Assembly: GCA_004322435.1 (NCBI GenBank)
Contig: SCTT01000319.1
Coordinates: forward strand, 1-35,246
DNA: 35,246 bases
Reading direction: 5' to 3'
Origin: a bacterium
GTDB lineage: Bacteria > Elusimicrobiota > Elusimicrobia > UBA1565
Below the pieces are notes generated by a model. That model searched no databases. It worked only from the letters and a program-made list of their open reading frames with translations, and had not been told where the DNA came from. Positions 11,527-31,651 of the stretch are shown here, in pieces. How positions within the stretch are numbered: the stretch's first letter is position 1; each line of letters opens with the position of its first letter. The translations under genes and the position numbers were made by a program.

Positions 11527-12719
11527 GGACCTTCTCGAAGGCCGCCGCGGCGCGCCTTTTCCTCGCGCGCCAGGGGCTGGACCGCCCGCGTTTTCAGCCC
11601 CTGACGCGGGAGTCGCTTGAGCGCTGCGCCGCGGCGACGGGCGGGCTGCAGCTCGATTCCATCAACGTGGTCGAGCGCGCGCACCGCCTGACGCTGTGGA
11701 GCCGCTTCGGCGCCTACGACGCGCAGGCCCTCGACGCCTGGGTCTACCGGGACCGCGCGCTCTTCGAATATTGGTCGCACGCCGCCTGCCTCGTCGCGCG
11801 GGAGCACCTGCCGGCGTGGCGGCGCGTGATGGCCGACTACAAGACCCGCCACACCGGCTGGTCGGGCTGGCTCCGGCGCAACGCCAAGGCCGTGGCCGCC
11901 GTGGAGGCCGAGGCCGCGGCGCGCGGCCCGCTTAAGGGCGGCGGCTTCACGCGGCCCAAGAGGCGCGGCGGGGGTTGGTGGAACTGGGACGCGACCCAGC
12001 ACGCGCTGCATTATCTTTGGATGGCCGGGCGCCTCGGCGTCGCCGCCCGCGTCAACTTCGAAAAGGTCTACGACCTGGCTTCACGCGTGCTGCCGGAGGT
12101 CGAGCCGCTGCCCGCCGCGGAGTTCCCCGGCTGGCACCTGCGCACGTCGCTGAAGGCGATGGGCGCGGCGACGGAGAAGGACCTGCGGATGTACATGACT
12201 TTCCCGCGGCAGAAGGCCGGAGAGCGCGGGCAGGCGCTCAAGGCCCTCCTCAAAGACGGGGAAGCCGTCGAGCTGCGGGTCGAGGGCGCGGAGGAGCCCT
12301 GGTACGCGCTCGCCGCGGACGTCCCAGCGCTTGAGAACCCGCCCGAACCGTCGGGGACGACGCTGCTTTCTCCTTTCGATTCCTTGATGTGGCACCGGGA
12401 GCGCGTCGTCCGTCTCTTCGATTTCGACTACAAGATCGAGGTGTACACGCCGGCGCCCAAGCGCCGCTACGGGTACTACGTGCTGCCCATCCTGCACGAC
12501 GGGCGCCTCGTGGGGCGGCTGGACCCCAAAAACCACCGGGACCGGAAGGTCTTGGAAGTGCGCCGGGTGCACCTGGAGGCGGGGGAGGAGAGGAACGCCG
12601 ACTCCATCCTGCAGGGGACCGCGGAAACCCTCAAATCCCTGGCCTCCCACCTCAAAGCCGAGCGGGTCGGCGTCACCGCGCGGGCCGCGCCGGGGCGGGC
12701 GCTCCGGGCGCTCCTCTAG
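11523..12719 (+). CDS. Winged-helix DNA-binding (HTH_42) protein, YcaQ/AlkX-like crosslink glycosylase family
   Basis: (GTG)RTFSKAAAARLFLARQGLDRP...GGLQLDSINVVERAHRLTLWSRFGAYD...ALFEYWSHAACLV...LLSPFDSLMWHRERVVRLFDFDYKIEVYTPAPKRRYGYYVLPILHDGRLVGRLDPKNHR. Confidence 0.85.
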   Translation: MRTFSKAAAARLFLARQGLDRPRFQPLTRESLERCAAATGGLQLDSINVVERAHRLTLWSRFGAYDAQALDAWVYRDRALFEYWSHAACLVAREHLPAWRRVMADYKTRHTGWSGWLRRNAKAVAAVEAEAAARGPLKGGGFTRPKRRGGGWWNWDATQHALHYLWMAGRLGVAARVNFEKVYDLASRVLPEVEPLPAAEFPGWHLRTSLKAMGAATEKDLRMYMTFPRQKAGERGQALKALLKDGEAVELRVEGAEEPWYALAADVPALENPPEPSGTTLLSPFDSLMWHRERVVRLFDFDYKIEVYTPAPKRRYGYYVLPILHDGRLVGRLDPKNHRDRKVLEVRRVHLEAGEERNADSILQGTAETLKSLASHLKAERVGVTARAAPGRALRALL

Positions 12720-13513
12720 CGGGTCCGGGTCGCCAGCATGTTGTGGGCGTCGAGCTTGCTCGTCGTGAAGCCGAACCCGGTCAGGAAGGCCGCGATCTCC
12801 CCTTCGGAGAGCCGCATCTTCTCGAGGATGGAGGGCAGGCACTCGAGGACGACGCAGCTCAGGCGCGGGTCCGCGAGCATCCGCCGCATCCCGCGCAGCG
12901 CCGCGAACTCCGCCCCCTCGATGTCCATCTTGACGAAGTCCGGGCACACCTCGGGGGGGAAGAGGCCGTCGAGGGAGACGCTGACGACCCGGCGCCCGGC
13001 CGCGCTGCCCGGAGGGGGCACCGCGATGGAATGCGCCGAGGGAGCGGCGTCGTTGCGGTAGAGGTCGGCGAAACCCAGGGACTCGGACACCGCGTAAGGG
13101 CAGACCTCGACGTTGCGGCAGCCGTTCTCGCGGATGTTCCGCTGCAGGAGCCAGAGGTTGTCGTGGTCGGGTTCGAACGCGTAGACCCGGCCCGCGGGGC
13201 CCACGAGCCGGGAGGCCAGCACGCTGTAGAACCCGATGTTGGCCCCCAGGTCGAAGACCGTCATGCCGGGCCGCAGGCGCTCCTTGAACGCGCGCGACTC
13301 GGCCGACTCGTACTCCTCCCCCATGCGCAGGCAGTCCGAGATCGCCTCGTCGTGGCCCTGCAGGTAGAACCGCATCGAGTCGACCTCGACGAAGTCCGGC
13401 TGCAGCCAGCCTTCCCAGACCAGGCGATGGAGGCGGTTGAAGACGCCTAAACCGAAGCCGAACCCGCGGGCCCGGCGGAAGAACGCCCGATACGCATCGC
13501 TCAACAAGCTCAC
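12716..13513 (-). CDS. FkbM family methyltransferase
   Basis: GMTVFDLGANIGFYSVLASRLVGPAGRVYAFEPDHDNLWLLQRNIRENGCRNVEVCPYAVSES...CPDFVKMDIEGAEFAALRGMRRML. GTG start overlaps the asnB stop; the N-terminal part of the 633-aa track ORF is asnB out of frame. Confidence 0.88.
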   Translation of the reverse strand: MSLLSDAYRAFFRRARGFGFGLGVFNRLHRLVWEGWLQPDFVEVDSMRFYLQGHDEAISDCLRMGEEYESAESRAFKERLRPGMTVFDLGANIGFYSVLASRLVGPAGRVYAFEPDHDNLWLLQRNIRENGCRNVEVCPYAVSESLGFADLYRNDAAPSAHSIAVPPPGSAAGRRVVSVSLDGLFPPEVCPDFVKMDIEGAEFAALRGMRRMLADPRLSCVVLECLPSILEKMRLSEGEIAAFLTGFGFTTSKLDAHNMLATRTR

Positions 13514-15435
13514 GCGCCGAACCCCCTGAAATCCGGCCGGCACTTCTGGTGCCAGAGCTCGAGCATGAGGAGCGCCCACAGCCGGTAGCCGTGGTCGCGC
13601 CGGCGGGACTGGTGGTCGTCCCACATCTTGCGCAGGTAGGCTTCCTCGAAGTAGCCGCGGTTCAAGGCCTCGGGCGAGAGGACGGTCTCCTCGAAGTAGC
13701 GCTTGAGCTTGCCGCGGAACCACGGCGCCATCGGGATGCCGAAGCCCATCTTCGGGCGCTTCGTGATGGACTGCGGGAGCTTGTCGGCGAAGGCCCTTTT
13801 CAGGATCCACTTGTGCCCGCGCAGGCCCTTGAGCTTCCACTCGCCCGGCAGCCGGAAGGCCGTCTCCATCACCTCGTGGTCGAGGAAGGGCGAGCGGGCC
13901 TCCAGGGAGTTCGCCATCGAGGCGATGTCCATCTTCACCATCAAATCTTCGGGCAGGTACGTGACGACGTCCGTGTAGAGCATCCGGTTGACGAAATCCT
14001 CGCCCTTCGAGCGCTCGTAGGCGTCGCCCAGGTAGCTGGCCGCGCGGGAGCGCGCGCCGGCCTCCTCCTCCCCGAGGGCCCGGCGCATCGCGGGGCCGTA
14101 GAGCCCCTGCTTGTCCTCGTCGGAGAAGTAGCAGATGACCTTGAGGTGGCGCTGGGCGAAGTCGCCGAAGACGGCCGCGCGCAGGAAGCGCTTGGCGCGC
14201 CACAAGGTCGAGAAGGGCGCGTCCTTCTCGGGCAAGTACTCGGCGCCCGCGACGATGAGCCTCTTCAGCGGGCCCGGGACCACGTCGTAGAGGCGCGCCG
14301 CCTTCATCGCGAAGTAGCGCACATAGCCGGCGAAGGCCTCGTCGCCGCCGTCGCCGTTTAAGGCCACGGTCACGTGCTTGCGCGTCTCGCGCGAGACGTA
14401 GTACGAGGGCAGGGCCGAGGCGTCGGCGTAGGGCTCGCCGTAGTGCCAGGCCAGCTTCGGCAGGACGTCGGCCATGTCGGCCGTGACGACGAACTCGTTG
14501 TGGTCGGTGCCGTACTGACGGGCGACCTGGCGGGCGTAGGGCAGCTCCGAGAAGGCGTCGTGGTCGAAGCCGATGGAGAAGGTCTTGACCGGCCGCTCGG
14601 AGAGCCCGGCCATGCACGCGACGACGATGGAGGAGTCGATCCCGCCCGAGAGGAAGGCTCCCAGCGGCACGTCGCTGATCATCCGCAGCTTGACCGCCTC
14701 GATGACCTTCGCGCGGACCATCTCTTCGGCCTCGCGGACGTCGGCGGTGAGCCGCGGCGCGCCCAGCGGCAGGTCCCAGTAGCGCTCGATGGTGACCCGG
14801 CCGTCCTGGTAGGTCAGCGTGTGCGCGGGCGGCAGCTTCTTGACGCCCTTATAGATGGTGCCCGGCGCGGGGATGTACTGCAGCGACAGATAGAGGTCGA
14901 TGGCCCGGGCTTCGAGCGCCGTGTCGACCCCGTCCCAGACCAGCAGGGACCTGAGCTCGGAGGCGAAGGCCAGGCCGCCGGGGAGGAGCGCGTAGAGCAG
15001 CGGCTTCTTGCCGATGCGGTCGCGCGCGAGGAAGAGGCGCTTGTCGCGCTTGTTCCAGACGGCGAAGGCGAACATGCCGCGCAGGCGGCCGACGGCCGCC
15101 GCGCCTTCCTTCTCGTAGAGGGCGAGGACCACCTCAGTGTCGGAGCGCGTCTTGAACGGATAGCCGGCCGCCTCGAGCGGCGCGCGCAGCTCCTGGAAGT
15201 TATAGACCTCGCCGTTGAAGACGATGACGAGGTTCCCGTCGCGGCTCTCCATCGGCTGATGGCCGCCGGACACGTCTATGATGGAGAGGCGCCGCATCGC
15301 CAGGGCCGCGTGGTCGTCGGTGTAGAAGCCCTCGTCATCGGGCCCGCGGTGGGTGATTAGGTCGTTGGCTTTTTTAAGGCGCGCGCGGTCGGCCTTGCCG
15401 GGCGAGGCGAAGACCGCGCCGACGATGCCGCACAT
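13510..15435 (-). CDS. asnB: Asparagine synthase (glutamine-hydrolysing)
   Basis: MCGIVGAVFASPGK (Cys2 nucleophile), HRGPDDEGFY, VFNGEVYNFQELR, RSDTEVVLALYE, LGAFLSGGIDSSIVVACMAG, ALNGDGGDEAFAGYVRY. Confidence 0.93.
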   Translation of the reverse strand: MCGIVGAVFASPGKADRARLKKANDLITHRGPDDEGFYTDDHAALAMRRLSIIDVSGGHQPMESRDGNLVIVFNGEVYNFQELRAPLEAAGYPFKTRSDTEVVLALYEKEGAAAVGRLRGMFAFAVWNKRDKRLFLARDRIGKKPLLYALLPGGLAFASELRSLLVWDGVDTALEARAIDLYLSLQYIPAPGTIYKGVKKLPPAHTLTYQDGRVTIERYWDLPLGAPRLTADVREAEEMVRAKVIEAVKLRMISDVPLGAFLSGGIDSSIVVACMAGLSERPVKTFSIGFDHDAFSELPYARQVARQYGTDHNEFVVTADMADVLPKLAWHYGEPYADASALPSYYVSRETRKHVTVALNGDGGDEAFAGYVRYFAMKAARLYDVVPGPLKRLIVAGAEYLPEKDAPFSTLWRAKRFLRAAVFGDFAQRHLKVICYFSDEDKQGLYGPAMRRALGEEEAGARSRAASYLGDAYERSKGEDFVNRMLYTDVVTYLPEDLMVKMDIASMANSLEARSPFLDHEVMETAFRLPGEWKLKGLRGHKWILKRAFADKLPQSITKRPKMGFGIPMAPWFRGKLKRYFEETVLSPEALNRGYFEEAYLRKMWDDHQSRRRDHGYRLWALLMLELWHQKCRPDFRGFGA

Positions 15436-16665
15436 CTAGGCGGCCCTCCGCGGCGCGAGGCGGGCCCAGGCGCCTTGGGCGCCCAGCGCGGCGAGCACCG
15501 CCAGGGCGGGCACGGCGGGGACCACGTAGCGGGAGAGGCCCTGGGTCAGCAGGTGGATGTTCATATAGAGGATGAGGGCCGTCACGGGGCGCGCCGCGGG
15601 GGTCTTCCACGACAGGACCATGCCGGCCAGGGCCGCCAGCAGGAAGGCCGCCTCGGCGCCCTTCGCGAGGACCTTGCCCACGGCGGCGCCCCAGGCCCCC
15701 TCGCGACGGTAATCGGCGAAGGCCCGGTCCAGCCCTAAGCCCTGCTCGGCCCAGCCGCCGTCGAACCAGATGGTCTTAAGACGCCCCACGCAGAACCCGA
15801 CGTAGCGCAGCGGCGCGCGCCGGATGTTGGCGAGCGCGACCTCCTTCGAGGCCGGGCCGATTTGCGGGTCGTGGGCGAAATAATAGCCGCGGATGGGCTC
15901 CGGCAGCGCCTCGTCGGGCGTGATGCCCTGGACGCCCTCGGTCGACTGGTAGAACGCGTGCAGTCCCATGCCGTCTTCAAAAGGTATGACACGCCCGAAC
16001 AGCAGGAAGTTCCGCACGAGCCACGGCGCGACGAAGAGGTAGGCCGCCGCTGTCATCATGAGGCCCCAGCGCCAGGCGCCCGGCCGGCCGGTCCAGGAGG
16101 GGAGGAAGGGGGTCAAGAGCGGCGGCAGGAGCAGCAGGCTGGAGCGGCAGGTCAGCGACAGGCCGGTCACGGCGCCGGCGGCCAGCCAGGGGCGCGCCGA
16201 GTCCCCGCCCTCCTGGACGGCGCGCACGAGGAGGAGCATCAGCGCCGCGAAGAGGAAGGAGAGCACGCTCTCATAGCCCGTCGTGAAGTCGAGGTGCGCG
16301 GAGAAGGGGTTGAGGACGGCCATCAAGGCGGCCGCGGCGGCCCAGCGCTCCGGCGTCAGGCGGCGGGCGGCGAGGTAGGTCAGGACCGCGGCCCCCATAG
16401 ACAGGAGGATGTTCATGACGATGACCGGCGTGGGCCCCGCCGACCCGGTCAGGCGGATGAGGAGCGCGAGCGTCAGAGGCCAGAAGGGGAGGCGGAAGGC
16501 CGTGGGGGTGAGCCCGTCGTAGGCGTAGACGCCGTGCTCGGCCAGGGACCGGGCGATGAGGTGGAAGTCCCCCTCCACGGGCGTCAGCAGCCCGGGGTTG
16601 ATCCAGACCTTGAAGGCGCGGAAGGCCAGCCCGGCGGCCAGGACGGCCCAGACGGCGCGCGGCAT
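15436..16665 (-). CDS. Polytopic membrane protein, GT-C/ArnT-like glycosyltransferase
   Basis: MPRAVWAVLAAGLAFRAFKVWINPGLLTPVEGDFHLIARSLAEHGVYAYDGLTPTAFRLPFWPLTLALLIRLTG...; multiple TM segments; ATGA start. Confidence 0.72.
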   Translation of the reverse strand: MPRAVWAVLAAGLAFRAFKVWINPGLLTPVEGDFHLIARSLAEHGVYAYDGLTPTAFRLPFWPLTLALLIRLTGSAGPTPVIVMNILLSMGAAVLTYLAARRLTPERWAAAAALMAVLNPFSAHLDFTTGYESVLSFLFAALMLLLVRAVQEGGDSARPWLAAGAVTGLSLTCRSSLLLLPPLLTPFLPSWTGRPGAWRWGLMMTAAAYLFVAPWLVRNFLLFGRVIPFEDGMGLHAFYQSTEGVQGITPDEALPEPIRGYYFAHDPQIGPASKEVALANIRRAPLRYVGFCVGRLKTIWFDGGWAEQGLGLDRAFADYRREGAWGAAVGKVLAKGAEAAFLLAALAGMVLSWKTPAARPVTALILYMNIHLLTQGLSRYVVPAVPALAVLAALGAQGAWARLAPRRAA

Positions 16666-17651
16666 CAAGACGTCCGCGCGGCGGCCTTCGGGAAGTGCTT
16701 GCGGCGCACCTCCTCGCGCACCCAGGCGTAGGTGCGCTTGAGGCCCTCTTCCAAGCTGATCCGCGGCTCCCAGCCGAGGACCGCGCGCAGCTTCGAGTTG
16801 TCCGAGTTGCGTCCGCGCACGCCCTGCGGGCCCGGCACGTGCTTTTTGACGATCTGGACGCCCGCCGCCGCGGCCACGAGGTCCGCCAGCTGGTCGATGG
16901 AGACCATCCGGTCCTGACCCAGGTTCAAAGGCTCCGCGTGGTCCGAGCGCATCAGGCGGGAGATGCCCTCGACGCAGTCGTCGATGTAGCAGAACGAGCG
17001 CGTCTGCTTGCCGTCGCCCCAGATCTCGACTTCGGGGTTGCCCGAGAGCTCGGCGAAGGCCACCTTGCGGCACATCGCGGCGGGGGCCTTCTCGCGCCCG
17101 CCGTCCCAGGTGCCCTGCGGCCCGAAGATGTTGTGGAAGCGCACGATGCGCGCGGTGATGCGCTTTTCCTCGTTGGCGTGCAGGCACAGGCGCTCGGTGA
17201 GGAGCTTCTCCCAGCCGTAGGCGTCCTGCGGCTGGGCGGGGTAGGCGTCGTCCTCCTTCAAGGGCACGACGTCGGCCGAGGTCTGCTTGTACTCGGGGTA
17301 CACGCAGGCCGAGGAGGTGTAGAAGTAGCGCTTGACGCCCGCGCGCAGGGCCCCTTCGAGGGTGTTGATGTTGATGAGGGCGTTCGAGGAGAGGATCGTG
17401 TAGTGGTTCGCCGAGATGTAGCCCATCCCGCCCATGTCGGCGGCCAGCGCATAGACCTCGTCGACCCCTTGGGCCGCGGCGTCGGCGGCGGCGCGCTCGC
17501 GCAGGTCGCAGACGCTGAACTCGTCGGCGTCCGTGGGGGCGTATTCGGGCTTCTTCAGGTCGGCCCCGCGCACCCAATGGCCCTGGGCTTTCAGGTAGGT
17601 GACGAGGTGGTGGCCGATGAAGCCGCCGGCGCCGGTGACGAGGATTCTCAT
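16665..17651 (-). CDS. GDP-mannose 3,5-epimerase-like SDR
   Basis: MRILVTGAGGFIGHHLVTYLKAQGHWV, YALAADMGGMGYISANHY, SSACVYPEYKQ, PQDAYGWEK, RFHNIFGPQGTWDGGREKAPAAMCRK, IWGDGKQTRSFCYIDDCVEG, VPGPQGVRGRNSDN: motifs typical of plant-type GME. Confidence 0.85.
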   Translation of the reverse strand: MRILVTGAGGFIGHHLVTYLKAQGHWVRGADLKKPEYAPTDADEFSVCDLRERAAADAAAQGVDEVYALAADMGGMGYISANHYTILSSNALININTLEGALRAGVKRYFYTSSACVYPEYKQTSADVVPLKEDDAYPAQPQDAYGWEKLLTERLCLHANEEKRITARIVRFHNIFGPQGTWDGGREKAPAAMCRKVAFAELSGNPEVEIWGDGKQTRSFCYIDDCVEGISRLMRSDHAEPLNLGQDRMVSIDQLADLVAAAAGVQIVKKHVPGPQGVRGRNSDNSKLRAVLGWEPRISLEEGLKRTYAWVREEVRRKHFPKAAARTS

Positions 17652-18565
17652 AGCAGGCTCCGATAGCGGGTGAAGGCCTTGGCCGCGCGCTCGGGCAGGA
17701 AGGCGGTCAGCGCCTCCTTGTCCTTCTGCAGCGCCGTCACCAAGGCGAGGTTCTTCTCGTAGCCGAGGAACTCGCCCACCATGTCCTTGGTGAAGTCGTG
17801 CACGTTGCGGTCCTGGCGCACCGAGGGCTTCGCAAAGACGACCTTGAACCCCTGCGCCTGCAGGTGGTACGCGCCCCAGATGTCGTCCATGCGGCCGATG
17901 CCCGGGAACATGAAGTAGTGCCGCAGGGCCTCGCGGGTCAGGAAGGTGTTCTGGGAGTTGAACGGCGCCCAGGCGTTTGAGGCCAGCGGGAAGCCGGCCG
18001 CCTCGAAGCGGCAGGCCGGGCGGTGCTCCATGCGGCAGAGCGCGTCGATGTCGGGGTCCCCGTCCCAGAAGTCGGCCTGCACGTCGCAGCGGCCGAGCGG
18101 CTCGCCCGCCGCGACCTGCGAGTAGTCGCGCTTGTGCAGGAGCTGCAGCGGGTAGCCGCGGTGCCACAGGTGGCGGTAGTTCGTGGCGCCGACGGGGTCG
18201 AAGACCGGGAGGTCCGTCTTGAAGAGGCGGCCGCGGGGGTGCGTGCCGACGAGGAGGTCCGTCCCCCAGCCCTCGTAGGGGACGTTGTCGTCGTCGACCG
18301 TGGCGACGACGTCGGCGCCCTGGCGGTAGGCGTGGAGGAAGCCCATGTTGCGGCGCTGGATGCAGCTCCAGCCGATGGCGTCGGAGAGCTCCTTGTCGAG
18401 CTCCTCCTGCATCGCCGGCGTCATGTAGAGGCCGCGACCCAGCTTGTAGTCGGCCGGGGTCTTCTTGTCTCCGACGACGACGAGCTCCCAGCCCTCCATC
18501 CGGTCGAAGAGCCGGATGGCCTCGGTGGGCGGGTTGATGGTGGTCGAGACGATGAACTTCTTCAT
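17648..18565 (-). CDS. STELLO/RGP (GT75)-like putative glycosyltransferase
   Basis: MKKFIVSTTINPPTEAIRLFDRMEGWELVVVGDKKTPADYKL...DAIGWSCIQRRNMGFLHAYRQGADVVATVDDDNVPYEGWG; ATGA start. Confidence 0.7.
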   Translation of the reverse strand: MKKFIVSTTINPPTEAIRLFDRMEGWELVVVGDKKTPADYKLGRGLYMTPAMQEELDKELSDAIGWSCIQRRNMGFLHAYRQGADVVATVDDDNVPYEGWGTDLLVGTHPRGRLFKTDLPVFDPVGATNYRHLWHRGYPLQLLHKRDYSQVAAGEPLGRCDVQADFWDGDPDIDALCRMEHRPACRFEAAGFPLASNAWAPFNSQNTFLTREALRHYFMFPGIGRMDDIWGAYHLQAQGFKVVFAKPSVRQDRNVHDFTKDMVGEFLGYEKNLALVTALQKDKEALTAFLPERAAKAFTRYRSLL

Positions 18566-19272
18566 CCCGCCTGCCCCGGGTTGGCCCCGAGCACCTCGCG
18601 GGCGAGGTACCCGAGCAGATGCGTCCCGCCCGCCAGCGCCTTGAAGTGCGTCTCGCCGTAGAAGCGCGGGCTCTCGACGGCCGGCACCTCGGTGCGCGAC
18701 TGGCGGAGCTTGTAGGAGCGGGCGGCCATGCACAGATCGACCGAGTGCCCCTCCTCCTCGACCCTCATCGCCTTGAAGGCCTCCACGCGGAAGCCCTTGA
18801 TGCCGTGCAGGATATCGGTGAGGTACGCGCCCTCGCGGCGCCACAGGAGCGCGACCAGGGCGCCCAGGACCTGGACGAACCACTTGCGCGGACGCACCAC
18901 GTCGGCGTCCTCCTCGTTGCGGCCGCCGGCCATGTTGCGGCTGGCGGCCACGAGGTCGGGTCCGGCCAAGAGGGCCTTGCGGATGTCGCTGACGATGGAC
19001 ACCGGCACGGTGCCCTTCGGGAAGAAGACGACCAGCGCGTCGGTCTTGGCTACGCGCGCGGCGTGGACGTACGCGGCGTTCAGGCCGCGCTTGGGCTGCA
19101 CGTGGACGGGGATCCCTAAACCCTTCAGGTAGTCGCCCGTGCCGTCCTTCGAGCCGCCGTCGACGCAAAAGACCTCGTCGAACTCGCCGCGCGGCAAGAG
19201 CGGCACGTCGCGGCGGCAGCCTTCGAGCTCGTTGAAGGTCAGCAGGCACAGGCCGACGGTGGGGGCGCTCAT
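18562..19272 (-). CDS. Glycosyltransferase family 2
   Basis: MSAPTVGLCLLTFNELEGCRRDVPLLPRGEFDEVFCVDGGSKDGTGDYLKGLGIPVHVQPKRGLNAAY. Confidence 0.8.
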   Translation of the reverse strand: MSAPTVGLCLLTFNELEGCRRDVPLLPRGEFDEVFCVDGGSKDGTGDYLKGLGIPVHVQPKRGLNAAYVHAARVAKTDALVVFFPKGTVPVSIVSDIRKALLAGPDLVAASRNMAGGRNEEDADVVRPRKWFVQVLGALVALLWRREGAYLTDILHGIKGFRVEAFKAMRVEEEGHSVDLCMAARSYKLRQSRTEVPAVESPRFYGETHFKALAGGTHLLGYLAREVLGANPGQAG

Positions 19273-19287
19273 CGGGAGACCCTTAGG

Positions 19288-20385
19288 CTAGCAAACACGG
19301 TAGAGGGCTTCCACGCGGGCGGCCACCGACTCCATCCCGAACGCCTTCGCCCGCTCGCGGGCCCCGGCCGCGAGGCGCGCGCGGAGGCCGGGGTCGTCCA
19401 ACAGCCGCCGCAGCGGCGCCGCGGCCCCCGGGTCCGGGTCGCCGTCGAAGAGCAGGCCGCTGCGCCCGTCCTCGACCGCCTCGGCCGTCCCGCCGACCCG
19501 GCTGCCCAAGACCGGCAGTCCGGAGGCCAAGGCCTCGAGCAAGGCGTTCGAGAGGCCCTCCGAGACCGACGGAAGCACGAACACGTCCGCGGCGCGGTAG
19601 AGCGGCGCCGGGTCACAGACCGGCTCGAGGACGCGCGGCCCCAAGGCCTCGAGGGCCACCCGCTCGGGACCGGCGCCCACGCAGACGAACTGGGGCGGCG
19701 GGACCGTCCCCGCGCACGCCCGCCCGAACGCCCTCGCGAAGGCCGGCAGGCGCTTCTCCCACGCCAGGCGGCCCATGTAAAGGAACACGGGGCCGGGGCC
19801 CAATCCCAGAGCGGCGCGCAGGGACTCCTTCTCGCCCGAGGCGGGAGGCCGGAAGCGTTTAAGGTCCACGCCGTTGGGGACGACTTCCGCCGTCCCCAGG
19901 CCGTGCTCCGCGAGCTCGTCGGAGAGCTCGGCGGCGACGGCGATGAAGCGCGGACGCAGGAGCTTGAAGAGCGCGAGCTTGAGCCGTCCCGCGGCGCTCT
20001 TGGCCGACAGCGCGATCTCGCCGATGCCCTTCCCCCCGCCCAGCTTCACGACCGCGGGCTTCCCGAGCAGCCTCCCCGCCAACGCCGCGGCCAGCGCCGG
20101 GGAGGAGGCGAGGTGGGCGTGCACCGCGTCGTAGTCGCCCCGCAGCAGACGTTTGAGGCAGGCCGCGAAGAACACCGACGAGTTGAGGACCCCGCCGCCC
20201 CAGGCCGCCAGGCGCTCGACCGGGACGCCGTCGACGTCCTCGCGCGCGGGGAGACCGGGCAGGGCGCGGGTGAGCACGAAGACGTCGTGGCCGCGCGCGC
20301 GCAGCGCGCGGGAGAGCTCGTAGGCCTGGCGCTCGGCCCCGCCCAAGGACGGCGGGAAGCCCGCGCTGACCATGGCCACCCTCAC
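19288..20385 (-). CDS. Glycosyltransferase family 4
   Basis: RVAMVSAGFPPSLGGAERQAYELSRALRARGHDVFVLTR...VVPNGVDLKRF...YMGRLAWEKRLPAF...VFVLPSVSEGLSNALLEALASGLPVLGSRVGGTAEAVEDGRSGLLF; GTG start in GTGA overlap. Confidence 0.9.
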   Translation of the reverse strand: MRVAMVSAGFPPSLGGAERQAYELSRALRARGHDVFVLTRALPGLPAREDVDGVPVERLAAWGGGVLNSSVFFAACLKRLLRGDYDAVHAHLASSPALAAALAGRLLGKPAVVKLGGGKGIGEIALSAKSAAGRLKLALFKLLRPRFIAVAAELSDELAEHGLGTAEVVPNGVDLKRFRPPASGEKESLRAALGLGPGPVFLYMGRLAWEKRLPAFARAFGRACAGTVPPPQFVCVGAGPERVALEALGPRVLEPVCDPAPLYRAADVFVLPSVSEGLSNALLEALASGLPVLGSRVGGTAEAVEDGRSGLLFDGDPDPGAAAPLRRLLDDPGLRARLAAGARERAKAFGMESVAARVEALYRVC

Positions 20386-23236: not shown

Positions 23237-25176
23237 GCGGCCTCCGCGAGCAGGCCCCGCGCGGACCAGAGGCCCAGCGCCGCGAGCGTGACCAGGGTGA
23301 GGGAGAGGCCGAGCCGGAAGGAGAGCGGGTCGTAGCGCAGCACCACCCGCCACGGGCCGGCGGGGACCGGACGCTTCACGAAGGCCCCCAGCGCGGGCTC
23401 GAAGGCGGGGCGCGGCGGCCAGGCGCGCCAGCCGGGGCCGAGCGGCTCGGCCAGGTAGAGCCAGCCCGCCTCCTCGGCGGCCCCCGCCGCCTCGAGGCGC
23501 CCCGGGCCCGAGCGAGCGACGCTGAGCGGCCGCGCGGCCGCGGGGTCGGGGGGTTGCGCCGAGTCCGCGGGGAGCGCGGCGCCGGCCGCCGGGGGGAACC
23601 ACCAGGCGCGGGCGACCGGCGCGACGGGGGTCGAGACGTCCCAGAGCGCGGCCCCGCGCGGCGTCAGGCCCGGGGCCGAGACGGGGCCGGGCGTGAGCAG
23701 CGCGCCGGCGTCGGCCCAGGGCATCCAGCGCGCCGCCTCGGCGGCGCCGGAACGGCTTTGGATGAAGTCGAGGAAGGCGTACTGCCGGGCGGGCACGAGC
23801 GGCTCCCCGAAGCCGGTGACGGACTCGACGCGGTAGGGCGCGTTCGAGAGCCCGTAGAGGCGGCGCTTTAAATCCAGCGCGGCCTGGTCCGAGTCGGACC
23901 CGACGGCGCGCTGGGCGTGCAGGGCCTTGGGCGACATCAGCACGCGGTGCGGACCCGCCGCCGCGCGCGCGGCGGCCACGACGGGCCCCGCGTCCGTCCA
24001 AAGCGCCGCCGGGGCGGTCGGATGGGCGCCGGCCGCGTAGACGGCGAGCTCGGCGAGCGCCGCCGCCAGCGCCCACGGCGCCCAGCGCCGGCCGGAGAGC
24101 CCCCGCGCGCACAGGAGCGCGAGCAGCGGGACGAGGAGGTAGGACAGGTTCCCGGGATAGCGGACGTAACGCAGCGGCGGCAGCGCCGCCCAGAGCCCGC
24201 GCGAGACGGGGTTCGTCCCGCCGAGGAGGAGCAGGGCCGTCCCCGCCCCGTACACGAGCGCCCCGGCCGCCGCCGCGGGACCGGCCGCGGTCAAGCCGAG
24301 GAGCGCCGCCGCGCCCGGGACGAGGCCGGCGTAGGCGGTCTTCCACCACCAGACGGCCGGGTCGTAGTCGGCCGGCGGGATGAGCGGCGGAGCGCTCAGC
24401 TGCACGAGGTCCCGCGGCGTAAACGACCAGGTCAGGGCCTCCTCGGACGACAGCCCCGCGCCGCGCTTCGAGCCGCGCGCGAGCTCGAGGGCCGGCACGA
24501 GCAGCACCCCGGCGAGCGCCGCGGCGAGCGCCGCGGCGGCGGCCCAGCGTCCGGCCCGGGCCGCGAGCCCCGCGAAGCCCTCGGCCCGCCGGACGCTCAA
24601 CAAAAACGCCGCCAGCGCCCCGCCCGCCGTCATCGTGGGATAGCCGGCGAGGAAGGAGAGCGCCAGCGACAGGGCCAACGGGAGCGGCGCGTCGGCGAAA
24701 AGCAGGAACGCCGGCAAGAACGCCAGCGCTCCCAGATGGTTGAGGAACGGCAGCCGGCTGACCGCGACGCCGCCCAGCGCCGCCGCGACGGCCCCCGCGG
24801 CGGCGGCCGAACGGGAGAAGCCTCCGCGGCGCAGCGCCAAGAGCCACAGCGCGGCGGTCAGGGCGTAGCTCAGCGCGTGGTAGACGGCCAGCGCGGAGGC
24901 GAAGCCGAACAGGTGGAAAGGCGCCGTCAGAGGATGCCAGGCCGCGCACTGCATCTGGGCGGCCAGCGGCATCCCGAGGTAGTCGTAGGGGTTCCAGAGC
25001 GGAAGCGCCCCCGCCTGCGCGAGCTGCGCGGGCAGCGCGCGCCAGGCGAAGTGGATGTAGAGGAGGTCGCCCCAGTAGAAGGTGCGCCCGGCCAGACGCA
25101 ATCCGCCGAACAGCGCGCCCGCCAGGGCCGCGCCGGCGGCCAGGACCCCGAAGTCGCGGCGCGAGAGCCCGCTCAT
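23233..25176 (-). CDS. YfhO-like polytopic membrane protein (tandem paralogue)
   Basis: MSGLSRRDFGVLAAGAALAGALFGGLRLAGRTFYWGDLLYIHFAWRALPAQLAQAGALPLWNPYDYLGMPLAAQMQCAAWHPLTAPFHLFGF; ATGA start. Confidence 0.78.
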   Translation of the reverse strand: MSGLSRRDFGVLAAGAALAGALFGGLRLAGRTFYWGDLLYIHFAWRALPAQLAQAGALPLWNPYDYLGMPLAAQMQCAAWHPLTAPFHLFGFASALAVYHALSYALTAALWLLALRRGGFSRSAAAAGAVAAALGGVAVSRLPFLNHLGALAFLPAFLLFADAPLPLALSLALSFLAGYPTMTAGGALAAFLLSVRRAEGFAGLAARAGRWAAAAALAAALAGVLLVPALELARGSKRGAGLSSEEALTWSFTPRDLVQLSAPPLIPPADYDPAVWWWKTAYAGLVPGAAALLGLTAAGPAAAAGALVYGAGTALLLLGGTNPVSRGLWAALPPLRYVRYPGNLSYLLVPLLALLCARGLSGRRWAPWALAAALAELAVYAAGAHPTAPAALWTDAGPVVAAARAAAGPHRVLMSPKALHAQRAVGSDSDQAALDLKRRLYGLSNAPYRVESVTGFGEPLVPARQYAFLDFIQSRSGAAEAARWMPWADAGALLTPGPVSAPGLTPRGAALWDVSTPVAPVARAWWFPPAAGAALPADSAQPPDPAAARPLSVARSGPGRLEAAGAAEEAGWLYLAEPLGPGWRAWPPRPAFEPALGAFVKRPVPAGPWRVVLRYDPLSFRLGLSLTLVTLAALGLWSARGLLAEAA

Positions 25177-26642
25177 CCGCCGGGCCTGCGGCGCAGCACG
25201 GGGCAGGCCTGGCCCCCGCGCGCGAGGGCGGCGACCGCCCGCGGCTCGTCGCCCAGGCGGCGGTACACCGCGGCCAGCTCGCGCCAGGCGCGCGGACGGT
25301 AAGGGTCGAGGCGCAGCGAGGCTTCGAAGGCCTCCGCCGCTCGGGTCAGGTGCAGGGCCGGGTCCTCGCCGGCGGCGGCGCGCCCGAGCGCCGCGTGCGC
25401 GTAGACGAGCGGAGACTCGGAGTCGCGCGGACGGCGCGCCGCCGCGTCGGCGGCCAGCGCCTGCGCCTCGAGGAGGCGCCCCTCCCCGAGCGCGAAGGCG
25501 GCCTGGGCGCGCGCCCGGTCGGCCGCCCACAGGGCGAAGACGGCGCTCGCCGCCCAGGCGCCGGCCCAGAGCGCCGCGGCGGCCGCGGGCAAGCGCCAGC
25601 GGCCGCGCACTCCGGCGCCCTCGCCGGATTCCGGCACCGAGCAGGCGGCGAGGTAGCAGAAGAGCCATAGGTTCCCCGGCACCGAGAGCGGCCAGTCCCA
25701 CAGCGAGTGCAGGAGCGCGGCCAGGGCGCCGAAGCGCTTGTAGCTGCGCGCGGAGAAGAGCAGCCGCCACAGGCCCGCGAACCACAGCAGGGCGAACGGG
25801 AGGCCGTACTCGGCGGCGGTCTGCAGCGGCCACTGGTGCGCGTAGACCGCCGTCAGGCCGCTCTCATGGTAGCCGGGCAGCGCCGCGGCGTAGGCGCCCG
25901 GCCCCGCGCCCAGCCACGGCCGGTCCGCCGCCATCGCCGCGGCCGCCCGCCACCAGGCGAGGCGGTCGAGGACCTCCGGCGACTGGAACTTGTTGTAGAC
26001 CGCGACGAGGCACACGAGGGCGCCGGCGAGCGCGGCCCAGGTCTTGGCCTCGCCGCGCCAGCGCGCGGTCAACAGCAGCGCCGCGAAGAACGCCATCCAC
26101 GCCCCGACGCTCTTGGTCCACCAGAGGCACAGGCCCAGCCCCGCGACGAGCAGCCAGTCGCGCCGGTCGGCGGCGACGGGGATGAGCATCAGGACCGCGC
26201 CGGCCCAGGTGTTGGCGTTGAGGAGCGCGCTCTCGGGGCGGTGGGCGCCCAGCCCCCAGCGCTGGTAGACGGCGAGCGTCATCAGCACCCAGGCCGCGGC
26301 CCGCACCGCCTGGTCCACCGTCTCGCGCTCGTCTTTGGAGAGCACCGCGGTCGCCGCGACGACGCCCAGGCCCACGAGGAGGACCGGCAGCTCGAAGGGC
26401 GCCTCGCCGGAGAGCGGACCCCGCCAGGCGCTCAAGGCCGCCAGGGCGGCCAGCCCCGCCAGCCAGGCCCGCGCGCGGGCGGAAGGCAGCGGGACGTAGC
26501 CCAGGCACACGCGCAGGGCCAGCCAGGCGGAGCCGCCGACGGCGACCACCGAGGCCACCAACGTCTGCGCCCAGGGGTCCCACGAGCCCCTCAGGAGGGG
26601 GCCCAGGGCCGCCGGGACGGCGACCAAGAGGGTCAGGAGCAA
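25173..26642 (-). CDS. O-antigen ligase-like (Wzy_C) membrane protein with C-terminal TPR-like segment
   Basis: TTG start 10 bp after the pilQ stop; multiple TMs; WWRAAAAMAADRPWLGAGPGAYAAALPGYHESGLTAVYAHQWPLQTAAEYGLPFALLWFAGLWRLL; C-terminal SLRLDPYRPRAWRELAAVYRRLGDEPRAVAAL. Confidence 0.78.
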   Translation of the reverse strand: MLLTLLVAVPAALGPLLRGSWDPWAQTLVASVVAVGGSAWLALRVCLGYVPLPSARARAWLAGLAALAALSAWRGPLSGEAPFELPVLLVGLGVVAATAVLSKDERETVDQAVRAAAWVLMTLAVYQRWGLGAHRPESALLNANTWAGAVLMLIPVAADRRDWLLVAGLGLCLWWTKSVGAWMAFFAALLLTARWRGEAKTWAALAGALVCLVAVYNKFQSPEVLDRLAWWRAAAAMAADRPWLGAGPGAYAAALPGYHESGLTAVYAHQWPLQTAAEYGLPFALLWFAGLWRLLFSARSYKRFGALAALLHSLWDWPLSVPGNLWLFCYLAACSVPESGEGAGVRGRWRLPAAAAALWAGAWAASAVFALWAADRARAQAAFALGEGRLLEAQALAADAAARRPRDSESPLVYAHAALGRAAAGEDPALHLTRAAEAFEASLRLDPYRPRAWRELAAVYRRLGDEPRAVAALARGGQACPVLRRRPGG

Positions 26643-26652
26643 GCCGCCCCCG

Positions 26653-28791
26653 TCAGGAGGCCATGATCTTCGTCGTGACGAAGATGAGGAGCTCGACTCG
26701 CTTGCGGTCGACGAACTTCTTGCGGAACAGGTACCCGATGATCGGGATGTCCCCCAACAGCGGCACCTTCGCGACGTTCTCGACCGCCGAGTCCGTGATG
26801 AGCCCGCCGATGACCACCGTGCCGCCGTCCTGGATGATGACGATGGTCTGGGCCTCGCGCGAGTCCACCGAGATCGCGCCGGACGTCCCGGCCGAGGCCG
26901 CGGTGGCCGAAGGCTGCTTGACCGCGGGCTTGACGTCGACGGTGATGCGGCCGTCGGCGTTGATGGTGGGCGTGACGTCCAGCGTGATGCCGGTCTCCTG
27001 ATATTCGACCTTCTGGCTCGTCGTGACGGTGCCGCCCGAGGGCGTCGTGTCGGTCGTCACGTACGGGATGCGCGTCGTGATGTTGATGGAGGCCTTCTTG
27101 CCGTTCAAGGTCGTGACCTTGGGGTCGGAGAGGACCTTGGCCTTGCCCTGGGACGCGGCCGCGGTCAGCGTGGCCGAGAGGAAGTAGTTGTTCGTGACGC
27201 GGCCGAAGGTGAACGCGCCGAAGACCTTGTCGGCCGGCAGGAACACTCCGGTGCCGCGGCCGTTGGCGCCGTCCCCGTTGACGGCGTTGACGTTGGTGAC
27301 GAGGGGGTTCAGGGTGGGGCTCGAGGCCTTCCTGGGGTTCGTGACCGTGCCGATGAGCGTGCGGCCGTCCTGGTTGAGCATCCGGTCTTCGTCGGAGCTC
27401 AGGTAGTCCCACTGGATGCCGAGAGCCAGGTCCTTCGTCAGCTGCACCTCGACGAGCTTGGCCTCGATCAGGACCTGCTGGGGCCGGATGTCGAGCTCCG
27501 AGAGCAGGCGCTCGACGGCCGCGATGCCCTCGAGCGTGTCCGTGATGATCAGGGAGTTCGTGTTCTTGTCGACGACCAGCTTCGCGGTGCGGCCCTCGGC
27601 CGTCGCCACCGCGGTGATCGAGCTGCTGATCTCCTCCGCCTTCGCGTACTTGAGGCGTATGACCCGCGTCTGGTTGACCGCGACGCTGCGCTCGGTCTTA
27701 AGCGACGCCGGCGTCAGCACGCGCAGGATGTTCTCGCCGACCTGGTTGGCGACCAGGCCCTTCATGCTCAGCACGGTCAAGAAGGCCTCGTTGAAGGGGA
27801 CCTCGCGCAGCTGCAGCGTGATGGACCCGGTGACGTCGGCGCCGTAGACCATGTTGACGTTGGCCTTCTGGGCCAAGAGCGCCAGCACGTCGTGGACGTC
27901 CATGTTGTCGAACTCGAGGGTGACGGGGTCGTTTGGCAAAGTCGCCAGGATGTCGCGCCGGAGCTTGCCCCGCTCGACGACGGCCGCCGCGGCGGAGGCC
28001 TTCGGGGCGCTGATGCCGGCCATGCGCGAAAGCTCGGCCGAGGGCTCCGAGGTCATGCCCTTGGGCATCTTCGACTCCTCGGCGGCGGCGGCCGGGGCTT
28101 CGTCGGGGAGCGCGGCCGCGGGCTTGGCGGGCGCGGCGGCGGGCGCCGCGGGCTTGGCGGCGACGACCGGTGCGACGACCGGGGCGGCGACGGGGACCGG
28201 CGCCGCTACGGGCGCGGGCGCCGGGGCCGCGGGCTTGGCCGCGACGGCGGGGGCCTTCTTCGCAGCGGGCTTGGGCTCGGCTTTCGCGGTGGGCGTGGAC
28301 GCGGCGACGGCCGGCGGCGTCGGGGGCTCCTTCTTCGCCGCGGCCGGCGCCGGGGCCGGAGCGGCTTCCGCGACGTCCGAATCGGACTGCGGGCCGACCA
28401 ACTCGACGTCGAGCCGCGGGCCCTCCCAGCGGGCCTTGTAGCTGACGAGGCTCTTGAGGTACAGGACGACGCGGGCGATGGGCGCGGGGTCCTTCTGGTA
28501 CTGGCCGGCCCGGACCTTGTCGAGGAACTTGCCCTTGCCCTTCACGACCTGCGACGCCCCCTCGTGCTCGGTGTTCAGGAGCTCGACGACGAGGCGCGGC
28601 GGCTCGGCGGTGGTGAAGGCGTTGAACTGCGCGGGCTTGGAGAGGTGGATCGAGACCTTGTCGGTGCCGGCCTCGACGCCCTCGAGCATCGCCTTCGAGG
28701 TCTCGGCGGCCAGGACCGGCGGCGGCGCCAGCAGCGCGGCCACGCTCAAGAGCGCGACGGCCCGCCGGGCCTCGCGAAGGATAGTCGTCAT
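26653..28791 (-). CDS. pilQ: Type IV pilus secretin PilQ (AMIN + secretin)
   Basis: Signal peptide; ATSKAM/AMIN-like N-term; VTLEFDNMDVHDVLALLAQKANVNMVYGADVTGSITLQLREVPFNEAFLTVLSMKGL; RPQQVLIEAKLVEVQLTKDLALGIQWD; TIVIIQDGGTVVIGGLITDSAVENVAKVPLLGDIPIIGYLFRKKFVDRKRVELLIFVTTKI. Confidence 0.95.
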   Translation of the reverse strand: MTTILREARRAVALLSVAALLAPPPVLAAETSKAMLEGVEAGTDKVSIHLSKPAQFNAFTTAEPPRLVVELLNTEHEGASQVVKGKGKFLDKVRAGQYQKDPAPIARVVLYLKSLVSYKARWEGPRLDVELVGPQSDSDVAEAAPAPAPAAAKKEPPTPPAVAASTPTAKAEPKPAAKKAPAVAAKPAAPAPAPVAAPVPVAAPVVAPVVAAKPAAPAAAPAKPAAALPDEAPAAAAEESKMPKGMTSEPSAELSRMAGISAPKASAAAAVVERGKLRRDILATLPNDPVTLEFDNMDVHDVLALLAQKANVNMVYGADVTGSITLQLREVPFNEAFLTVLSMKGLVANQVGENILRVLTPASLKTERSVAVNQTRVIRLKYAKAEEISSSITAVATAEGRTAKLVVDKNTNSLIITDTLEGIAAVERLLSELDIRPQQVLIEAKLVEVQLTKDLALGIQWDYLSSDEDRMLNQDGRTLIGTVTNPRKASSPTLNPLVTNVNAVNGDGANGRGTGVFLPADKVFGAFTFGRVTNNYFLSATLTAAASQGKAKVLSDPKVTTLNGKKASINITTRIPYVTTDTTPSGGTVTTSQKVEYQETGITLDVTPTINADGRITVDVKPAVKQPSATAASAGTSGAISVDSREAQTIVIIQDGGTVVIGGLITDSAVENVAKVPLLGDIPIIGYLFRKKFVDRKRVELLIFVTTKIMAS
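28079..28370 (-). repeat. Ala/Pro/Lys-rich low-complexity linker within pilQ
   Basis: APAPAPAAAKKEPPTPPAVAAS...AKPAAPAPAPVAAPVPVAAPVVAPVVAAKPAAPAAAPAKPAAAL; recurring AKPAAPA units between the AMIN-like and secretin parts. Confidence 0.8.
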
Positions 28792-28795
28792 GGGG

Positions 28796-29398
28796 TCACT
28801 CCTCCGCCTCATCGGCGTCCTCACCGAGCCTCAAAGTCTGGACGTCCTTGTCGGCCGTCGTCAGGGTCACCGTCTTCTGCGCGGGCTGGATCACGCCGGT
28901 CACGCCCGGCACGGGCTTCTTGCGCATGTCGTAGAGCCGGCCGCCGCGCAGGATGAAGCTGAAATGGGTGTTCATGTCGACGAGCATCGCCGACATCCCC
29001 GCCTTGTCGCGCATGATGCCCTTGAGCTCGAGCTGGTGGATGCTGAACTCCTCGGGGTCGAAGTCCTTGGGCGGCGCCGCGACGGGCGCCGCGGCGGCGC
29101 CGGAGCCGCCGAGCTTCATGAAGGGGTCGCGCAGCTTGGCGCCGCCATAGATGTCGTCGACGCCGAGCGCCTTGACGCCGCCGGTCGACTCCTCGACCGC
29201 CGGGGCCTTCTCCTTCTTGGGCTTGCGGGGGGCGTCCTGCTGGGCGGCCGAGAGCCCGGGGGTGCCCGGCTGCCCGCCGCCGCCCGAAGGAGCGGCCGTC
29301 GGCTCGGACGGCGCGCCCGGCCCACCCATCGGCATGGGCGGGCCGCCCTGCGAGAAGGCGGGGAGGGCCAAGAGGAGGGAGAGGGAGAGGGCGGTCAT
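28796..29398 (-). CDS. pilP: Type IV pilus assembly protein PilP-like
   Basis: Position between pilO and pilQ; YGGAKLRDPFMKLGGSG...FDPEEFSIHQLELKGIMRDKAGMSAMLVDMNTHFSFILRGGRLYDMRKKPVPGVTGVIQPAQKTVTL. Confidence 0.85.
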   Translation of the reverse strand: MTALSLSLLLALPAFSQGGPPMPMGGPGAPSEPTAAPSGGGGQPGTPGLSAAQQDAPRKPKKEKAPAVEESTGGVKALGVDDIYGGAKLRDPFMKLGGSGAAAAPVAAPPKDFDPEEFSIHQLELKGIMRDKAGMSAMLVDMNTHFSFILRGGRLYDMRKKPVPGVTGVIQPAQKTVTLTTADKDVQTLRLGEDADEAEE

Positions 29399-29940
29399 CC
29401 TTTATATTGGTAGGAGATCAGCTGGAAGGTCACGTTCATGCGGCCCTCCGTGTCCGGCGCGCCGTAGGTGATCCCGCGGACGTTGTAGATGCGCTCCTCG
29501 AGGGCGACGGCGGCCAGGAAGCGCCCGAGCTCGTGGAACGTCGCCGAGCCGGTGACCATATAGGTCGTCTCGATGAAATGGGCCTGAGGCTTCGAGCCTC
29601 CCGGGACGAACGTCGCCAGCTTGAGGTTATAGCGGCGCGAGAGGGCGGTCACGGTGTCGATGACGGCCGGAAGGTCCTGGGTCTTCGGCAGGCGCTTCTC
29701 CGCCTCGAGGGCGGCGACGTTGAGCTCCTCGAGCTCCTTCTGGATCTTGTTGAGCCGGACGGCCTGGTTCTTGGCCTTCGCGATCTTGCCCTCGACCTCC
29801 TCGATCTTGGCCCGGGTCTCTGAGATCTTCTCGGACACGGGCAGCCAGAAGTACTTGATGTAGCCGAAGCCGCCGCCGCCGAGGACGAGGACCGCCACCG
29901 CGAGGTACTTCTGCTGGTCCGGGCTGAGCTTCACGGTCAT
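29395..29940 (-). CDS. pilO: Type IV pilus assembly protein PilO
   Basis: MTVKLSPDQQKYLAVAVLVLGGGGFGYIKYFWLPVSEKISETRAKIEEVEGKIAKAKNQAVRLNKIQKELEEL (TM plus coiled coil), PilO-like C-term; ATGA starts either side. Confidence 0.88.
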   Translation of the reverse strand: MTVKLSPDQQKYLAVAVLVLGGGGFGYIKYFWLPVSEKISETRAKIEEVEGKIAKAKNQAVRLNKIQKELEELNVAALEAEKRLPKTQDLPAVIDTVTALSRRYNLKLATFVPGGSKPQAHFIETTYMVTGSATFHELGRFLAAVALEERIYNVRGITYGAPDTEGRMNVTFQLISYQYKG

Positions 29941-30494
29941 TTCGCCGCCGCCGCGTCCGGCCGGTACTTCATGCTCATCGGGAAGGTCACCATGCCGTCG
30001 GCGCTCAGCATGATCGCGCCGAGCGCCGGGTCCCTGAAGGTCGTCGACTGCAAGAGCTGGCGCAGCCATGCCGTGGCGGCCTCGGGCCCGGTCGCCTGAC
30101 AGGACATGGTCACCGTGAGGTCGGTCGCCGACCCGGCGGCGGTCAAGGAGACCAGCCACACGCCCTCGCCGAGGTTCTTCAACAGCTCCGTCATGAAGCG
30201 CGGGTAGAAGGAGCGGGCGACGAGGAGGTCCTGGATGACGTCGAGCCGCGACTTGACCGCCTTGGCCTTGGCCTCCAGCTCCTCGACCTGCTTGACGATG
30301 GCCTCGAGGCGCTTGAACTCGGCCTCCGCCTCGACGCGGCGCTTCTCGAGGGCCACGCTCTTGTAATAGTGGGAGAAGGAGATCCCCAGGAAGATGACCG
30401 CCAAGAAGCCCGCGGCGACGGAGACCTGCGCGAGCCGCTGCTTCTGCAGCTCGCGGTCCAGGATCTCCTGCGGGACCAGGTTTACTTTGATCAT
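29937..30494 (-). CDS. pilN: Type IV pilus assembly protein PilN
   Basis: MIKVNLVPQEILDRELQKQRLAQVSVAAGFLAVIFLGISFSHYYKS; N-terminal KVNLVP matches the PilM-binding INLLP-type motif; one TM then coiled coil. Confidence 0.92.
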   Translation of the reverse strand: MIKVNLVPQEILDRELQKQRLAQVSVAAGFLAVIFLGISFSHYYKSVALEKRRVEAEAEFKRLEAIVKQVEELEAKAKAVKSRLDVIQDLLVARSFYPRFMTELLKNLGEGVWLVSLTAAGSATDLTVTMSCQATGPEAATAWLRQLLQSTTFRDPALGAIMLSADGMVTFPMSMKYRPDAAAAK

Positions 30495-31651
30495 GCCCAG
30501 TCCCTGTTGCGGCGCAGCGCCAACCCCGCCGCGACGCCCAGCGCCGGCAGCATGTCCGCCGGGAGGTCGGCGGGCAGCGTCGGCACGAACGCGAGCGGGT
30601 TCATCACGGACACCGGCACCTTGAGCTCGGCCGAGAGCGCCTTCGCCAGGTTCTTCATCCGCGCGGTGCCGCCCGAGAGGACGATGCGGCCGATCGAACG
30701 CTCCGGCCCCTGCGACAGGTAGAAGTCCACCGAGCGGTGCAGCTCGCCGACGAGGTCCTTGAGGACGCCGCTGACGGCCTGGGAGACCCCCAAGGCGTCG
30801 CGGTTGCCCTCGGCCAGCGCCTTCTCCTTCTCCTCGGCGTCGATGAGGATGCCGTTGGCCTTCTTGGCCTCCTCGGCCTTCGCCGCGTCGTATTGGAGGG
30901 CCTTCATGATGGCCTTCGTGAAGGTGTTGCCCGAGATGAACACGTCGCGCACGACGCGCGTCACGCCCGCCTCGATGATGGAGAGGTTCGTCACCGTGTG
31001 GCCGATGTTGAGGTAGAGCGTGGAGCCGGCCTTGCCCTCGCCCTCCCCGACGGCCTCGTAGACGTTCTCGAGGGCGAACGAGTCGACGTCGATGACGGTG
31101 GGCTTCATGCCCACCGACTCGAGCACCTCGACGCGGGCCGCGATCACGTCCTTCTTGACGGCCACCAGCACCGTCTCCATCTTCTTCTGGCCTTCCTCGA
31201 CGAGGTCGCCCAGGATGTGGAAGCCCAGCTGCACGTCGTTGATGTCGAAGGGGATGAAAGGCTCGGCCTCGGTGGTGAGGGTCGCGCGCAGCTCGTCTTT
31301 GGTGAGCTTGGGGAACTTCACGTAGCGGACGATGACCGCGTTCCCGGACACGGCCGTCGAGGCGTGCTTGACCTGCACGCCCTTCTCGATGAGGAGCGCC
31401 CGCAGGCGGTTGACGGTCGCCTGCTTCTTCTCGTCGGGGGAGGCGTCGGCCTTCGCGTCGATGGGCGCGTAGCCCCAGGCCTTGAGCGTCCAGGCCTTGC
31501 CTTCCTTCTTCAAGTGCACGACCTTGAGCGCGAAGCTGCCCACGTCGACGCCGACGACGTCCGTGGGGCCAAAGAGGAAGGAAGCCTTCTCCTGGAGGCC
31601 CTTGAGGTCTATCGCCTGCAGCTTCGCCTTGATGACGTCGAGTCCGGCCAT
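30491..31651 (-). CDS. pilM: Type IV pilus assembly protein PilM (actin-like ATPase)
   Basis: DVVGVDVGSFALKVVHLKKEG...TAVSGNAVIVRYVKFPKLTKDELRATLTTEAEPFIPFDINDVQLGFHIL...LYLNIGHTVTNLSIIEAG...IVLSGGTARMKNLAKALSAEL. ATG at 31651 preceded by GGAGG. Confidence 0.93.
   Translation of the reverse strand: MAGLDVIKAKLQAIDLKGLQEKASFLFGPTDVVGVDVGSFALKVVHLKKEGKAWTLKAWGYAPIDAKADASPDEKKQATVNRLRALLIEKGVQVKHASTAVSGNAVIVRYVKFPKLTKDELRATLTTEAEPFIPFDINDVQLGFHILGDLVEEGQKKMETVLVAVKKDVIAARVEVLESVGMKPTVIDVDSFALENVYEAVGEGEGKAGSTLYLNIGHTVTNLSIIEAGVTRVVRDVFISGNTFTKAIMKALQYDAAKAEEAKKANGILIDAEEKEKALAEGNRDALGVSQAVSGVLKDLVGELHRSVDFYLSQGPERSIGRIVLSGGTARMKNLAKALSAELKVPVSVMNPLAFVPTLPADLPADMLPALGVAAGLALRRNRDWA

Follow-up and report, generated by a model that had tools for sequence, protein, structure and literature searches.

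A pilMNOPQ-Wzy_C gene linkage kept across the Elusimicrobiota suggests coupling of pilus assembly and surface glycan transfer

Known pilin-glycosylating ligases have been described mostly from Proteobacteria, and their genes usually lie beside the pilin gene. We analyzed a contig of 35,246 nucleotides (SCTT01000319.1, the whole of which is referred to as the window), one of 578 contigs in the 4.04-Mb metagenome-assembled genome GCA_004322435.1 of an uncultured Elusimicrobiota bacterium, in which the type IV pilus genes pilMNOPQ are followed on the same strand by a gene for a Wzy_C ligase-like protein and ten glycan genes. As with the PglL/TfpO O-oligosaccharyltransferases, to which PilO of Pseudomonas aeruginosa belongs, a Wzy_C-family membrane ligase with a conserved histidine and arginine is genetically tied to type IV pili. 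However, in contrast to the PglL/TfpO systems (PMC3643930), the ligase is linked to pilMNOPQ and not to a pilin gene (except at one related locus, L066), the PglL_A domain was undetected, the protein carries C-terminal tetratricopeptide repeats (TPR), and a glycan cluster lies downstream. PglL-type ligase genes often adjoin a pilin gene, and the P. aeruginosa pilin transferase PilO/TfpO, which is also without PglL motifs, is encoded beside its pilin gene (PMC3643930).

The O-antigen ligase WaaL shares with the protein studied here its fold (7tpg, the sole significant match in the PDB) and an invariant histidine and arginine, but here the gene is found among pilus genes, the protein ends in a TPR region, the TM-score is about 0.5, and there is no sign of lipid A-core as the acceptor. 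Polysaccharide genes are also linked to type IV pili in the exopolysaccharide (Wzx/Wzy) pathway of Myxococcus xanthus, where the link came from mutants (PMC7484181), whereas here it is drawn from a gene order kept across the phylum. The two YfhO-like GT-C (C-fold glycosyltransferase) membrane proteins of the operon resemble those of the YfhO/CsbB/GtcA transmembrane glycosylation of Firmicutes, although here the family match is weak, the phylum is diderm, no GtcA or CsbB was recognised in the conserved core, and relatives have a PF03706 protein instead. We found no description of the pilMNOPQ-Wzy_C linkage in the open-access literature.

The pilQ-Wzy_C junction is ancient and is present across most of the phylum Elusimicrobiota. 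A pilM scan of genome contigs yielded 80 kept loci, apparently from Elusimicrobiota (some are titled just 'bacterium'), and Wzy_C directly follows pilQ in 60 of the 65 named loci having PilQ and a following gene. When a phylum-wide ligase search was compared with a phylum-wide PilQ search, the ligase was located at most 719 bp downstream of pilQ in 94 of the 121 genomes in which PilQ matched strongly (median gap, 38 bp), and the linkage occurred in 16 of 26 families, several of them outside the window's class. Synteny in relatives had been proposed as a check by an earlier interpretation made from the letters alone (the sequence-only reading), and it was conserved; because it extends across the phylum, a chance arrangement is excluded. 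Some apparent exceptions resolve on inspection: in f8 and f22 a more divergent Wzy_C adjoins pilQ, in f6 the Wzy_C lies one gene further on, and in f9 the LPG_synthase_TM and GT4 genes are present.

The genes that accompany the junction are conserved to different depths. In distant families outside the window's class, genes for YfhO-like proteins, LPG_synthase_TM, a family 4 glycosyltransferase (GT4) and AsnB recur at the linkage. Among the first relatives examined within the window's order, the genes widely follow the arrangement pilMNOPQ - Wzy_C - YfhO_A - YfhO_B - LPG_synthase_TM - methyltransferase - GT4 - AsnB, on a single strand and mostly with short gaps. From the window, the LPG_synthase_TM gene has been lost, whereas genes for a family 2 glycosyltransferase (GT2), a 305-residue protein, an epimerase and a PMT_2 protein have been added between GT4 and AsnB, as has FkbM at the end; none of these was seen there in the relatives examined. 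In place of the YfhO cluster, Elusimicrobiales loci have, after the ligase, genes for a second Wzy_C-TPR protein, a PLD-family protein and an uncharacterized protein. At L097 (14597-20134) and other Elusimicrobiales loci, the two Wzy_C genes after pilQ are in tandem and overlap, and the uncharacterized protein that accompanies the PLD-family protein has about 470 residues.

Such an order could have persisted by inheritance alone, with the pilus and glycan genes in one operon but without functional coupling. Ligase distances are correlated with PilM distances (r = 0.91), as for any vertically inherited pair, which indicates co-inheritance and not function, and either partner has been lost separately in some genomes described below. 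However, pilQ-Wzy_C persists across orders that differ in the gene preceding pilM and in most of the glycan genes further down, and distant families again show the core; inheritance alone is an improbable explanation.

In the window, the sixteen successive minus-strand genes at 12716-31651 that the sequence-only reading had described, with their spacings, were recovered by a codon-usage gene finder, and pilM, pilN, pilO, pilQ, the Wzy_C gene and most of the glycan enzymes were confirmed by Pfam and NCBIfam. PilM, PilN, PilO, PilP and the secretin PilQ are encoded in this order, as in type IV pilus pilMNOPQ clusters, followed by the ligase-like gene and the glycan genes. In the direction of transcription, the genes are:

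30491-31651, minus strand: pilM (PF11104, PilM_2, 1.2e-50).
29937-30494, minus strand: pilN (PF05137).
29395-29940, minus strand: pilO, alignment complex (PF04350, 8.5e-19).
28796-29398, minus strand: pilP-like, by position; the window protein is without a Pfam match, and PF04351 matches 5 of 11 orthologues at E<=0.1.
26653-28791, minus strand: pilQ, secretin with an AMIN domain (PF00263, 3.6e-49; TIGR02515, 303.6 bits against a cut-off of 284.35).
25173-26642, minus strand: pilQ-linked Wzy_C ligase with C-terminal TPR (PF04932, 46 bits against a cut-off of 31.7).
23233-25176, minus strand: YfhO_A, large membrane protein, probable GT-C enzyme, itself without a Pfam match.
21410-23236, minus strand: YfhO_B, large membrane protein, probable GT-C enzyme (PF09586, 2.5e-6; 26.6 bits against a curated cut-off of 28.5).
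20382-21413, minus strand: methyltransferase with a Trm112-like N-terminus, conserved core (PF08241, PF03966).
19288-20373, minus strand: GT4 glycosyltransferase, conserved core (PF13692, PF13439).
18562-19272, minus strand: GT2 glycosyltransferase, lineage-specific insert (PF00535).
17648-18565, minus strand: 305-residue protein, lineage-specific, without a Pfam match, glycosyltransferase-like by eye.
16665-17651, minus strand: NAD-dependent sugar epimerase/dehydratase, lineage-specific (PF01370, 1.8e-45).
15436-16665, minus strand: PMT_2 GT-C glycosyltransferase-like protein, lineage-specific (PF13231, 1e-9).
13510-15435, minus strand: AsnB-type amidotransferase, conserved core (PF00733, 1.3e-105; TIGR01536 above cut-off).
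12716-13513, minus strand: FkbM methyltransferase, last gene, lineage-specific (PF05050; TIGR01444 above cut-off).

The glycan locus of eleven genes is thus present as claimed, but the block of GT2, 305-residue, epimerase and PMT_2 genes and the FkbM gene fall outside the conserved core. The YfhO family was matched at E<=0.01 by 10 of the 25 members of a joint YfhO_A/YfhO_B alignment, and a PDB profile search with the YfhO-like proteins gave no match. No gap in the run exceeds 15 bp: from FkbM to the Wzy_C gene the junctions measure -4, 0, -1, -4, -4, +15, +8, -4, -4 and -4 bp, and from Wzy_C/pilQ to pilM they measure +10, +4, -4, -4 and -4 bp. The gap of 10 bp between pilQ and the ligase gene agrees with the earlier reading and is too short for a promoter or terminator to fit there. 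A motif scan found no terminator-like match in this junction, and one weak sigma70-like match inside pilQ, where shuffled sequences lead one to expect 0.4; an internal signal separating pilQ from the ligase, which would have spoken against a single unit, was otherwise not obtained.

Upstream of pilM, two elements were recognized:

31772-31800, minus strand: promoter of the unit, with the -35 element TTGACA at 31800-31795, a 17-nt spacer ending in TGT, and the -10 element TAAAAA at 31777-31772.
31710-31753, minus strand: leader hairpin and T-run, probable attenuator, with GCGCCGA, a variable stem-loop and TCGGCG, followed by the T-run.

A TTGAC[AT] element, a 16-17-nt spacer and a -10 element were found in 34 of 38 pilM upstream regions, 33 of them with the extended TG. 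Pilus assembly and glycan synthesis had been suggested to be co-expressed, and the phylum-wide synteny, the near-zero spacing and the one conserved promoter upstream of pilM lend good support to the view that pilus assembly and glycan ligation are expressed together. The pilus and the surface sugar are therefore probably made together.

In the window, GCGCCGA begins 47 nt after the start of the -35 element. The flank of the hairpin, GCGCCGAG, is conserved and the inner stem is variable. MAFFT-based covariation was uninformative because the inner stems differ in length, and per-sequence folding was therefore used; both stems fold in all 29 distinct order-level leaders, with a mean z of -2.25 against shuffled inner loops. 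In its own genome the pattern is essentially unique to the region upstream of pilM, with one well-paired copy, and in relatives the well-paired matches are pilM leaders, the others being sporadic as in the reversed control; a common genomic terminator was rejected on these grounds. A known riboswitch was also rejected, since Rfam 15 gave no match up to E=5. The hairpin and U-tract probably act as an intrinsic attenuator just downstream of the start site. As in known leader attenuators, where an intrinsic terminator stands near the transcription start, a GC-rich hairpin and U-run lie between promoter and first gene, but here the GCGCCGAG flank is conserved, the inner stem varies and no Rfam family is matched. 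The hairpin was not seen in most Elusimicrobiales leaders.

WaaL has conserved H338, R288 and R215 in its periplasmic loop region. The pilQ-linked protein is made up of Wzy_C and TPR domains, the former scoring above the curated PF04932 cut-off, and R227, W230, W231, G245, G247 and H269 are invariant in 45 pilQ-linked homologues. AlphaFold models reached a pLDDT of 94.3 for the full-length ligase and 92.0 after trimming of the TPR; the domain was trimmed because Foldseek with the full-length protein returned TPR matches only. With the trimmed model, 7tpg_B (WaaL) was the sole significant solved structure (E 7.3e-6, probability 1.00; TM 0.52/0.49), the next-best PDB match being at E=0.3. Sequence-profile searches of the PDB for WaaL were inconsistent, with E=3.5e-5 for the A3 alignment and nothing for the trimmed A5. 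There are good grounds to assign the protein to the WaaL-fold ligases, and H269 and R227 are candidate catalytic-type residues that may be equivalent to the histidine and arginine of WaaL. The structure search of 25173-26642 that had been proposed thus led to WaaL, the O-antigen-ligase-like assignment is supported, and a lack of the loop residues, which would have told against it, was not observed.

The genome carries eight further Wzy_C genes. With L145 excluded on account of its clustering with the second tandem copies, the ligase tree unites 74 pilQ-linked ligases in one clan (support 0.884); seven other Wzy_C proteins encoded by this genome lie outside it, as do the second tandem copies.

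Taken together, the gene order and spacing, the linkage and repeated core, the separate clan, the invariant H269 and R227, the WaaL fold, the pilin at L066 and the promoter support a model that we prefer tentatively and with slightly less than even confidence, in which an ancestral Elusimicrobiota operon would co-express PilMNOPQ, the alignment complex plus secretin, and a module for glycan transfer outside the cytoplasm to a pilus-tied acceptor. The extended -10 promoter ahead of pilM would be the single start of transcription, which in the window's order would then run through the hairpin/U-tract attenuator. A lipid-linked glycan would be built or edited in the cytoplasm by the GT4/GT2, epimerase, methyltransferase and AsnB enzymes, sugars would be added on the periplasmic side by membrane proteins of the YfhO/PMT type, and the pilQ-linked Wzy_C ligase would move the glycan en bloc to the acceptor, for which a pilin or another pilus/envelope component is the likeliest candidate. 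What we observed directly is the order of the genes, their conservation, the predicted fold, the conserved residues, the promoter and the leader hairpin; from these we infer the lipid-linked donor, the order of the steps, attenuation and, above all, the acceptor.

Transfer of the glycan to a pilin is a plausible hypothesis. As the sequence-only reading had stated, the structural pilin is outside the window; pilin genes were found on other contigs of the same genome (C36, C439, C67 and C496; L162-L165). The ligase gene does not stand beside a pilin gene as in PglL/TfpO-type systems, except at L066 (12272-12694), where the pil operon itself includes, between pilO and pilP, a pilin gene of a common paralogue family. 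Several such paralogues occur per genome (up to 16 matches), with a conserved C-terminus of about CTHTDTKGSxWTxY.

Several observations weigh against pilus glycosylation by this ligase. The C-terminal pilin motif was rejected as a marker of ligase presence, as it is unchanged where the ligase has been lost, and PglL_A (PF15864) is not among the Pfam matches of the ligase. In two genomes (G005 and G007) the ligase has been lost from the operon while pilMNOPQ, pilins and other glycan genes are kept, and in another (G019, 93% complete) Wzy_C-LPG-methyltransferase-GT4 is kept and a pilin is present, but no pilM was found; neither the pilus half nor the glycan half strictly requires the other. Furthermore, in one genus (G003 and G006; L041 12653-13738 and L044 8691-9782) the pilQ-linked Wzy_C is without the histidine loop, and the TPR, YfhO_A and YfhO_B have been lost together with it; this joint loss is a single event and no more than suggestive.

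Alternatively, the product of the module may be a polysaccharide of the cell surface (O-antigen or exopolysaccharide). Wzy_C would then be a WaaL-type ligase or a Wzy-type polymerase, the pili would be unglycosylated, and the operon would be shared because type IV pilus motility needs the polysaccharide or because the two are activated together. The structural match to WaaL and the undetected PglL motifs fit this explanation, as do the Wzx flippase that some relatives encode within the locus or immediately behind it and the glycan part retained in G019. The Wzx/Wzy pathway of M. xanthus is important for type IV pilus formation, and three Wzy_C proteins there are predicted polymerases (PMC7484181). 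On the other side, no export gene of the Wzz/OPX type was recognised within the conserved core, the eight further Wzy_C genes are available for such roles, and the link to pilQ predates most of the glycan genes downstream. We regard a co-regulated surface polysaccharide as a close rival, nearly as likely as pilus glycosylation. The more specific proposal, that a phylum-ancestral, mostly TPR-bearing Wzy_C class glycosylates pili at their assembly site as one unit with PilMNOPQ, with a new attenuator in one order, is doubtful.

With pilMNOPQ joined phylum-wide to a ligase/glycan module, the coupling of pilus assembly to surface glycan transfer would seem to date from early in this little-cultured phylum, and it becomes directly testable in any cultured carrier. 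The joining also defines a distinct Wzy_C clade, and the promoter and leader element mark the unit.

The unit is flanked by two operons on the plus strand. At 31910-35245, divergent from pilM and 258 bp from it, are genes for a HAD hydrolase, a nucleotidyltransferase, a 281-residue ATP-grasp-like protein and a class III aminotransferase; this operon is kept beside pilM in the window's order and not in Elusimicrobiales. A convergent second glycan operon at 2442-12719 encodes a Wzx-type flippase, two GT2 enzymes, a WecB-type epimerase, a GT4 enzyme, two methyltransferases, a YfhO-like membrane protein without a Pfam match and, last, an AlkZ-like DNA glycosylase, the gene of which overlaps the end of the pilM-FkbM unit by 4 bp.

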